A stretch of DNA of 34,092 bases, from contig WFZS01000019.1 of the NCBI GenBank assembly GCA_015489465.1, positions 1-34,092 of the forward strand. The letters run 5' to 3'. The notes beneath the pieces are model-generated. The model ran no database searches and had not been told where the DNA came from. It saw only the letters and a list, made by a program, of their open reading frames with translations. Below, piece by piece: positions 8,707 through 34,092 of the stretch (position 1 is its first letter; each line of letters starts with the position of its first letter). The DNA is from Bacteroidales bacterium (GTDB lineage Bacteria > Bacteroidota > Bacteroidia > Bacteroidales > F082). A program made the position numbers and the translations under genes.

Positions 8707-9789
8707 ATGAACTCCGTAAAGAAAATATTAATATGCCCGATGGATTGGGGGCTGGGACATGCAACACGCATGGTTCCGGTTATAGAATTGTTAAAGGAAA
8801 AAGACGTTGAAATTATTTTAGGTGCCGATAACAGACCTTACGAATTTCTTAAACACAGGTTTCCGGATTTACCCGTAATACGTTTTGAAGGTTACGTACC
8901 TCATTACCCGAAAAAAAGTGCCATGGCATTAAAAATGCTGTCGGACATGCCCGAAATGATGCGCCGTGCCGATGAAGCACATGCTTTTCTTGAAAAATTC
9001 GTTAAAAAAAATAACATCGACATTGTTATTTCAGATAACCGCTATGAACTTTGGACCAAATATGCGCGGACTGTTTTTGTTACCCATCAAATAGAGATTC
9101 AGACGGGCAATTACGGAAAAATCACAAAAATGGCCATAAAGCAACTTGTCAGCGGATTTATAAAAAAATTCGACGAGTTGTGGATTCCCGATTTTGAAGG
9201 TGACATAAACCTTTCGGGAAAACTATCGCACGTAAATAAATATCCTCTTAAAAATCGCCATTTTATAGGTCCGTTAAGCAGATTCGGATTTGTAAACCCG
9301 AAAAATATTGATAAAAAACCCGATGTTTTGATTATGCTTTCGGGACCGGAACCTCAACGAAGTATTCTGGAAGTAAAATTAAAAGATCAAGCTTTTCACA
9401 CTGGTTTAAACACTGTTATACTTCAAGGCCGTCCGGAAGATGAGTATTATGAAAAAATGGGTAATGTAGAAGTATTTTCACACTTACCCGATGAGGAAGT
9501 TGCCGGATATATTAACAATGCTGACATTGTTATAAGCCGGCCGGGTTATTCTACCGTTATGGATCTTGCATGGTTCGGTGCCAAAGCGGTATTTATCCCT
9601 ACACCCGGACAAACGGAACAAAAGTACCTTGCGGAATATCTGAAAAAGAAAGGTTATTACTATTACCAAAATCAAAATGACTTTGACCTTGAACAGGCTA
9701 TCGCCGAATCGGTTAATTATAGCGGTGTTTTACTCAAAAACGACTATATCATTCTGAAAAAAAGAATCGAAAATCTTATCAATCAATAA
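8707..9789 (+). CDS. GT-B fold glycosyltransferase (MurG/GT28-like)
   Basis: 360 residues with the two-domain GT-B layout. The N-terminal domain opens with KILICPMDWGLGHATR (6-21), the Gly-rich loop of MurG-like enzymes. The C-terminal half has VLIMLSGPEPQRS, then HLPDEEVAGYINNADIVISR and GYSTVMDLAWFGAKAVFIPT, which resemble the GT28 nucleotide-sugar site. It is not murG itself, whose neighbours are cell-division genes. No signal peptide or membrane helix, so probably cytoplasmic or membrane-associated. Acceptor and donor sugar are unknown; envelope glycan or glycolipid synthesis is inferred. The start is fixed by the KILICP strand at residue 6. Divergent from dprA and ends 10 bp from the 3' end of hflX. 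Confidence 0.8.
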   Translation: MNSVKKILICPMDWGLGHATRMVPVIELLKEKDVEIILGADNRPYEFLKHRFPDLPVIRFEGYVPHYPKKSAMALKMLSDMPEMMRRADEAHAFLEKFVKKNNIDIVISDNRYELWTKYARTVFVTHQIEIQTGNYGKITKMAIKQLVSGFIKKFDELWIPDFEGDINLSGKLSHVNKYPLKNRHFIGPLSRFGFVNPKNIDKKPDVLIMLSGPEPQRSILEVKLKDQAFHTGLNTVILQGRPEDEYYEKMGNVEVFSHLPDEEVAGYINNADIVISRPGYSTVMDLAWFGAKAVFIPTPGQTEQKYLAEYLKKKGYYYYQNQNDFDLEQAIAESVNYSGVLLKNDYIILKKRIENLINQ

Positions 9790-31344: not shown

Positions 31345-32022
31345 ATGAAAACAAAATTTTTACTACTTTTTTTAAGTTTAATTTTAAGTATTTACTCTTT
31401 TGCAGGGGACAATGACACGGGTTCAAAACATAAAGTTAGAAATACAAGTGGAATAGGCGTTGCCATAAAACTTACATCTTTAGGACCCGGAATAGAAATT
31501 AGCAAAGCTTTTTATCATCCATTTAATATAAGACTCGGGGCTACTTATTTCGGAAACAAAAGTGATTTATCAAAATATCTTCCCGACGGTGAATATTTTT
31601 ACAATGAACTTAGAATAGGAACCGTATCATTAATAGGCGACTGGCAATTCAGAGGTATTTTTCATGCTTCTTTAGGTGCATTTTATAATTATTCGGAAGA
31701 ATATTATGAACATGACTATCCTTCATATAATCCACCAACAATTGTAAATAAGGTTAGATTCAATGTTAATAAAATAAATCCTTATATAGGTGTTGGTTTT
31801 GGAAGAAGTATATCTAAAAAAAGACTTTTAAGCTTCGGTCTTGATTTCGGGATTTTATATATAGGTAAAATTAAATATAGCATCGAAACAAACGATCCGG
31901 ATTATGAAAAACCTGAAGATATAATTAAACCTTTGGATAAAATAGAGAGATTTCAATTTTATCCTTATCTGAATTTCCAATTATCGTTTAGATTATTTAC
32001 AAAAATTAAACACTATTACTAA
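31345..32022 (+). CDS. outer-membrane beta-barrel protein, function unknown
   Basis: 225 residues with a signal peptide ending SFA|G, the one ordinary signal-peptidase-I product here whose mature end is not Gln. Barrel-type strands include SGIGVAIKLTSLGPGIEI, FNIRLGATYFG, TVSLIGDWQF, INPYIGVGFGRS and LLSFGLDFGILYIG, ending FQFYPYLNFQLSFRLF. No family is recognised. Its stop overlaps the stop of lutB by 4 bp (32019-32022). Confidence 0.75.
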   Translation: MKTKFLLLFLSLILSIYSFAGDNDTGSKHKVRNTSGIGVAIKLTSLGPGIEISKAFYHPFNIRLGATYFGNKSDLSKYLPDGEYFYNELRIGTVSLIGDWQFRGIFHASLGAFYNYSEEYYEHDYPSYNPPTIVNKVRFNVNKINPYIGVGFGRSISKKRLLSFGLDFGILYIGKIKYSIETNDPDYEKPEDIIKPLDKIERFQFYPYLNFQLSFRLFTKIKHYY

Positions 32023-33433: not shown

Positions 33434-33886
33434 CTATTCACATTTTATCGGAATCTTTTTTATTCTTCTTAAATGCCTTCCACCTTCAAATTCGGTAGTA
33501 AGAAAAATTTTAACCATTTCCCAAGCTTGTTCAAAAGGTATGTATCTTCCGGGAATAGACATTATGTTTGCATCGTTATGTTGTCTTGTTAACCTTGTTT
33601 GTTCTTCATTCCAACACAAACCGGCTCTGACATTTTGATGTTTATTGGCAGTCATCTGGGCTCCGTTTCCGCTCCCGCACATTATAATACCTCTTTCATA
33701 TTCACCGTCATTAACAGCTTTTGCCAATGGATGTATAAAATCGGGATAATCAACACTTTCTTCCGAATAAGTACCGAAATCCACAATTTCATAACCTGCT
33801 TCTTCCAATTTCTTTTTCAAAAATTCTTTCATGGCATAACCGCCATGGTCCGTAGCCATTGGTATAATTTTACTCTTATCGTTCAT
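33434..33886 (-). CDS. rpiB: ribose-5-phosphate isomerase B
   Basis: Interconverts ribose 5-phosphate and ribulose 5-phosphate in the pentose phosphate pathway. 150 residues, normal. Motifs: ATDHGGYAMK (11-20), VDYPDFIHPLA (45-55), the catalytic Cys in MCGSGNG (Cys70) and the His in TRQHNDAN (His103); GGRHLRRI (135-142) provides phosphate-binding Arg residues. Some RpiB relatives prefer allose or galactose phosphates, but the pattern fits the standard enzyme. First gene of rpiB-lutB. Confidence 0.95.
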   Translation of the reverse strand: MNDKSKIIPMATDHGGYAMKEFLKKKLEEAGYEIVDFGTYSEESVDYPDFIHPLAKAVNDGEYERGIIMCGSGNGAQMTANKHQNVRAGLCWNEEQTRLTRQHNDANIMSIPGRYIPFEQAWEMVKIFLTTEFEGGRHLRRIKKIPIKCE

Positions 33887-33908
33887 TTGTTAAAAAAAAT
33901 ATGATGCA

Positions 33909-33916
33909 CAAAATTA
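33909..33916 (-). promoter_or_regulatory. -7 box for rpiB-lutB
   Basis: Minus strand TAATTTTG, exact match, 22 nt before the ATG at 33886. Confidence 0.5.
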
Positions 33917-33942
33917 GTCAAAAAAATACGGTTATTTAAAAA

Positions 33943-34092
33943 GTATTGATACTTAATGCTTTTTATTTAAATATTTAAAAATATATCATATTAAATGTTA
34001 TTGATACTCAAATTTTTACAAGTTATCAACACTCATGTTAATATTAATGTTTATTAATCGGTGACAAAATAACGGTTATCAACAGTTATTAC
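33943..34092. other. AT-rich region with DnaA-box-like repeats (possible oriC or dnaA upstream region)
   Basis: No gene is visible. TTATCAACA occurs twice in the same orientation (34023-34031 and 34076-34084), one mismatch from the TTATCCACA DnaA box. TATTGATACT also occurs twice (33944-33953 and 33999-34008), and long A/T-only stretches lie between (33960-33998). The window stops 8 bp after the second box, so what follows cannot be read. A replication origin or an autoregulated dnaA promoter is possible; AT-rich chance is the alternative. Confidence 0.35.

Follow-up and report, generated by a model that had tools for sequence, protein, structure and literature searches.

The chromosomal origin of replication (oriC) of Escherichia coli consists of clustered 9-mer boxes for the initiator DnaA, in both orientations, within AT-rich DNA. 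Among relatives of the bacterium considered here, the oriC predicted by Ori-Finder in Tenacibaculum adjoins rpiB in six of seven circular chromosomes and lies near rpiB in the seventh (PMC9864904), other flavobacteria are described with oriC near mnmG (PMC12843772, PMC11278836; a figure legend of the latter gives mnmG and leuB in the opposite order), and in Prevotella intermedia OMA14 the oriC coincides with the skew turn and has multiple DnaA boxes, with dnaA distant (PMC4755523), all according to the passages of these sources cited here. We have analyzed a stretch of 34,092 bp from an uncultured Bacteroidales bacterium (hereafter the window). It is one entire contig (C19) of the 209 in a 2.74-Mb draft genome, and its right edge is therefore an assembly break. 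The last gene before this edge is rpiB (ribose-5-phosphate isomerase B), and the short tail upstream of it is very probably the rpiB-proximal part of a chromosomal oriC, cut by the assembly. This prediction is based on a skew minimum in or near the rpiB upstream region of relatives, on a recurrent array of DnaA boxes in the same place and on the absence of a skew turn at dnaA. A previous sequence-only reading of the window had called the tail origin-like, and the skew of the relatives together with boxes at recurrent positions now supports that suggestion.

The GC (guanine plus cytosine) skew could be followed at the scale of a whole chromosome in G002, a complete 3.27-Mb chromosome from the same family. 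In sixty 20-kb samples the coarse cumulative minimum followed the sample at 162 kb, and the maximum was reached at ca. 2.0 Mb, about 1.77 Mb from the minimum. With the unbroken sequence between 182 and 270 kb, the minimum could be refined to position 228,841, inside the intergenic region (228,696-229,227) that separates rpiB (ending at 228,695) from nadA (starting at 229,228). The minimum was also found inside the equivalent region in G040 (567,934, minimum of 200 kb; region 567,382-567,990), in the same-genus contig G025 (9,209; region 8,757-9,290) and in G009 (67,444; region 67,040-67,593). Of the 51 named loci with no less than 4 kb on each side, 26 have the minimum at the region upstream of rpiB (2.3 expected by length); by comparison, it falls in 6 of the 74 further divergent intergenic regions that these loci contain. 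In the window the cumulative minimum is at 34,034, and the contig that carries nadA in this genome (C51) gives a skew sum of +168 when read outward from nadA. The skew of the draft genome itself is consistent with an origin at rpiB, where these relatives have their minimum.

The relatives were selected by rpiB similarity, in named and unnamed sets that overlap, and 48 rpiB-nadA intergenic regions were reduced to 42 non-redundant ones by leaving out near-duplicates and lengths outside 300-900 bp. These 42 regions contain 111 copies of TTATYAACA, vs. 4.0 in shuffles. Position 6 of the box is A in 111 of the 119 TTATYMACA words, the eight with C being one TTATCCACA and seven TTATTCACA (0.2 and 0.9 expected). 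A motif-blind ranking of 9-mers placed TATCAACAA first and TTATCAACA second, the two differing by a one-base shift, with GATATTAAC and TGTTAATAT within the next four places; outside boxes, TGTTAATAT occurs 43 times in the 42 regions (2.5 expected). The boxes recur at particular distances from rpiB, ca. 135 (+), 152 (-), 197 (+) and 233 (-) bp, and more distally ca. 305 (+), 335 (-), 398 (-) and 455 (+) bp. Those of the window, at 136 (+) and 189 (+), align with TTATTAACA in three congeners. Enrichment was also evident in the Bacteroidales-type loci (L124-L187, assigned by list position and title), of which 58 out of 64 were counted over 600 bp upstream of rpiB, the other six having too little sequence. 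They hold 223 TTATBAACA boxes (6.30 per kb), whereas 152 intergenic regions elsewhere have 11 (0.22 per kb), and at least three boxes were present in 49 of the 58 and in none of the 152. The rpiB-nadA region is AT-rich throughout (median GC 0.232 in the 42 regions), and no sharp site was seen in its averaged AT profile, the nadA half being absent in the genome of the window.

The features identified at the right end of the window are listed below.

33434..33886, minus strand: rpiB (PF02502, E 1.2e-55), the last gene of the contig, flanking the predicted origin
33887..34092, no strand assigned: the 206 bp next to rpiB in the rpiB-nadA intergenic region (predicted oriC), whose nadA-side part is unassembled
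33944..33953, plus strand: TATTGATACT repeat, copy 1, which on the minus strand is a two-mismatch box (GTATCAATA); unconserved
33999..34008, plus strand: TATTGATACT repeat, copy 2; unconserved
34023..34031, plus strand: putative DnaA box TTATCAACA, at the recurrent position ca. 132-139 bp upstream of rpiB
34036..34044, minus strand: putative variant box ATATTAACA, whose word and approximate place match the TGTTAATAT(CTGC) element of relatives
34076..34084, plus strand: putative DnaA box TTATCAACA, at the recurrent position ca. 184-202 bp upstream of rpiB

The tail (33887-34092) has a GC content of 19.4%. The sequence-only reading had reported here two TTATCAACA words 53 bp apart and two TATTGATACT words 55 bp apart, all on the plus strand of AT-rich DNA, and the coordinates are correct. 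Neither word has further exact copies in the window, and a TGTTAATAT word is found at 34036, between the two TTATCAACA boxes. Both words were chosen post hoc, after inspecting the sequence, and their rarity in shuffles has to be read accordingly: two TTATCAACA per 34 kb were reached in 13 of 100 shuffles, which is unremarkable alone, and for either word a same-strand pair within 60 bp appeared in 0 of 300 shuffles of the whole window, and a pair in 0 of 5000 shuffles of the tail. Eight 9-mers are repeated in the tail; at least as many were found in 7 of 1000 shuffles. Across the 2.74 Mb of the genome, TTATCAACA-N40..60-TTATCAACA has a single occurrence, at this tail, and the reversed-pattern control has none. 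The similar spacings had been taken for a repeated layout rather than chance. Close same-strand pairs are indeed rare in shuffles; however, only TTATCAACA generalizes across relatives, and hence the 53 and 55 bp spacings are not one conserved layout. The TATTGATACT pair was rejected as a conserved origin repeat, with 0 occurrences in the 42 related intergenic regions and its core ATTGATA at chance in them (14 observed vs. 13.9 expected). Farther from the edge, a 225-amino-acid open reading frame (window 31345-32022) had no Pfam match at E 0.001.

The gene beyond the rpiB upstream region in relatives is often nadA, oriented away. Counting this genome and its family relatives, rpiB and nadA are divergent and 512-725 bp apart in 56 of the 64 genomes that bear nadA; two of the rest have no rpiB match and six have the two genes on separate contigs. 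In these six split genomes (G000, which is the genome of the window, G011, G034, G050, G055, and G068) the rpiB contig breaks 148-465 bp upstream of rpiB, and the breaks fall inside the predicted origin. The nadA of the window genome starts at the extreme end of C51 (8,959 bp), where, at position 8959, its first codons are replaced by letters that resemble an untrimmed Nextera transposase adapter. A search of this genome with the intergenic region of G025 did not find the missing part and gave short matches only (best E 0.004). Reading further to the right, as had been proposed, is not possible in this genome as the contig ends at the window edge. By eye, no rpiB-nadA adjacency was seen outside the family among the matches listed for 147 genomes (148 with that of the window). 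At five loci where nadA was not found (L127, L133, L143, L147, and L177), the gene facing rpiB encodes a repeat protein (SSEGxLRDGKPDGxWKTYYExG-like) similar to one found two genes past nadA in G002 (L041:14744-16264), a pattern that loss of nadA with retention of the origin would give.

In relatives, the full origin would be the AT-rich region of ca. 550 bp (512-725 bp) that separates the divergent rpiB and nadA. The initiator DnaA, whose gene is located elsewhere, would bind boxes of the TTATCAACA type and oligomerize, the AT-rich DNA would open and the helicase would load, and two forks would depart, one past rpiB and the other past nadA.

Boxes near rpiB were also counted elsewhere in the Bacteroidota. 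Upstream of rpiB, 16 loci of Flavobacteriaceae (Tenacibaculum and Polaribacter among them) carry 5.94 boxes per kb, with at least three boxes in 13 of them, and 60 other intergenic regions have 0.17 per kb. We also used a phylum sample of 20 single-contig genomes with an rpiB match, eight of the same class and 12 of others. At least two TTATNMACA words within ca. 600 bp upstream of rpiB were found in six of the eight and in none of the 12, although several of the latter are GC-rich, which lowers such word counts anyway. The minimum of the 20-kb skew was located within 1 kb upstream of rpiB in three of the eight and in none of the 12. In G155 (same class) the coarse skew turns between 2.44 and 2.60 Mb, with rpiB at 2.546 Mb and dnaA at 1.818 Mb. 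The word counts in this sample, together with G155 and the Flavobacteriaceae, indicate that the linkage to rpiB is common to part of the class. An origin at rpiB in all Bacteroidota is unsupported, given the 12 genomes of other classes with fewer than two words.

There are three other possible explanations for the tail. One is that the origin lies beside dnaA, as is frequent but not obligatory, and that the rpiB region is an AT-rich spacer. The sequence-only reading had proposed looking for dnaA to the right of the edge; the gene is located mid-contig on C86, not on the window contig. Its distance does not refute an origin at rpiB, since a long separation of oriC and dnaA is common in Bacteroidetes, as stated in a passage of PMC4755523. 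No skew turn was seen around dnaA on its own contig, and in G002 dnaA lies at 682,066, 453 kb from the skew minimum, between samples that are both positive (+516 and +537). Of 11 dnaA loci, seven had no box word within ca. 1.5 kb of the DnaA domain (for L102, 0.8 kb on one side), and none had more than two. The skew of G155 contradicts this location too, if coarsely, and an origin beside dnaA was rejected as practically incompatible with these data. Just as hard to credit is that the words are chance repeats without function, for which the low GC of the tail and the frequency of two TTATCAACA copies in shuffles could be invoked; boxes stand at aligned positions in three congeners and are strongly enriched over the 42 related regions. 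The remaining explanation is that the cluster binds DnaA without being an origin, either as a titration or reactivation site similar to datA or DARS or because DnaA controls the transcription of rpiB or nadA. Boxes by themselves are no proof of an origin, and in many regions one of them adjoins the start of rpiB (29 of 145 boxes begin within the first 15 bp) and may belong to the translation or transcription start. However, 116 boxes (5.02 per kb) are left once these positions are dropped, and the cluster is kept at loci where nadA was not found. Moreover, a datA or DARS site is a cluster away from the origin, whereas the skew minimum falls at this one, on the scale of the whole chromosome in G002 and locally in several other relatives. 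We therefore consider it improbable, if less so than the other two.

Several observations weigh against an origin upstream of rpiB. The skew check proposed by the sequence-only reading put the minimum upstream of rpiB, inside the intergenic region, in the four relatives described above, but in G041, which has no nadA match, it is 0.5-0.9 kb upstream of rpiB, just beyond the edge of the intergenic region, and in G001 the 20-kb minimum is more than 9 kb away. In 25 of the 51 named loci the local minimum is elsewhere, many times at the locus edge. Among the Flavobacteriaceae it coincides in one of 13 loci (0.5 expected), and G216, G232, and G127, of the same class, have boxes and no local minimum there. 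Three of the 58 rpiB upstream regions lack any box. The region of G002 has a single exact TTATYAACA, so that density alone misses the origin; a sampled scan of this chromosome by the density of the exact word did not single it out, and two other spots have two each. Finally, the nadA half of the intergenic region is absent from the assembly to which the window belongs. Even so, an intergenic cluster of DnaA boxes, two of them exact in 206 bp, is present in the window, and we maintain that its tail is, with high probability, part of the oriC.

The initiator protein also appears to be different in this family. When the DnaA of this genome is aligned to 8btg_A, N stands opposite the P of SLPKIG and A opposite the first T of DHTTV. 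We take these two columns to be P423 and T435 in E. coli numbering. In domain IV, all 11 DnaAs compared (that of this genome and those of ten family relatives; L002 and L097-L106) have DHATV, and all have N, A, or I in place of proline at the P423 position (by eye, ungapped motif). The residues that contact the DnaA box in E. coli are R399, P423, D433, H434, T435, and H439, and the box itself is TTWTNCACA, in the passages of PMC7561715 cited here. The changed residues, together with the A at position 6 of the box, suggest a shifted specificity, the link between the two being one that we infer. A more speculative proposal, which we regard as possible but would not favor, is that initiator and box have drifted together, the latter toward TTAT(C/T/G)AACA, giving DnaA a specificity unlike that of E. 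coli, and that the linkage between rpiB and the origin is old in the class Bacteroidia (this family and Flavobacteriaceae).

Among the papers listed by our searches on oriC, rpiB, nadA, and GC skew, we noted none on an rpiB-nadA origin in Bacteroidales. As origins adjacent to rpiB have been published for Tenacibaculum, the window would be a case of a known kind, with a known neighbor, in another family. Possibly new are the link between rpiB and the origin in a family of Bacteroidales, the A at position 6 of the box and the two changed contact residues of DnaA. The prediction places the origin in an uncultured family of Bacteroidales in which rules based on dnaA would mislead, and the rpiB upstream region with its TTATBAACA cluster provides a marker that could orient genomes and serve for replication-rate estimates from metagenomes. 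The family also offers a simple test of shifts in DnaA specificity.

Compared with the known systems, the predicted origin shares with the oriC of E. coli the clustered 9-mer boxes in both orientations within AT-rich DNA, and differs in having A instead of C at position 6 of the box and rpiB and nadA as neighbors. The oriC of P. intermedia OMA14 is similar in that a cluster of boxes marks the skew turn at a distance from dnaA, but the passage describing it refers to boxes sought with the E. coli motif (PMC4755523). The oriC of Tenacibaculum also stands beside rpiB, and loci of Flavobacteriaceae have a box-rich region upstream of this gene, although there other genes replace nadA at the loci inspected, the genus belongs to a different order of the class and the location has an Ori-Finder prediction as its basis.
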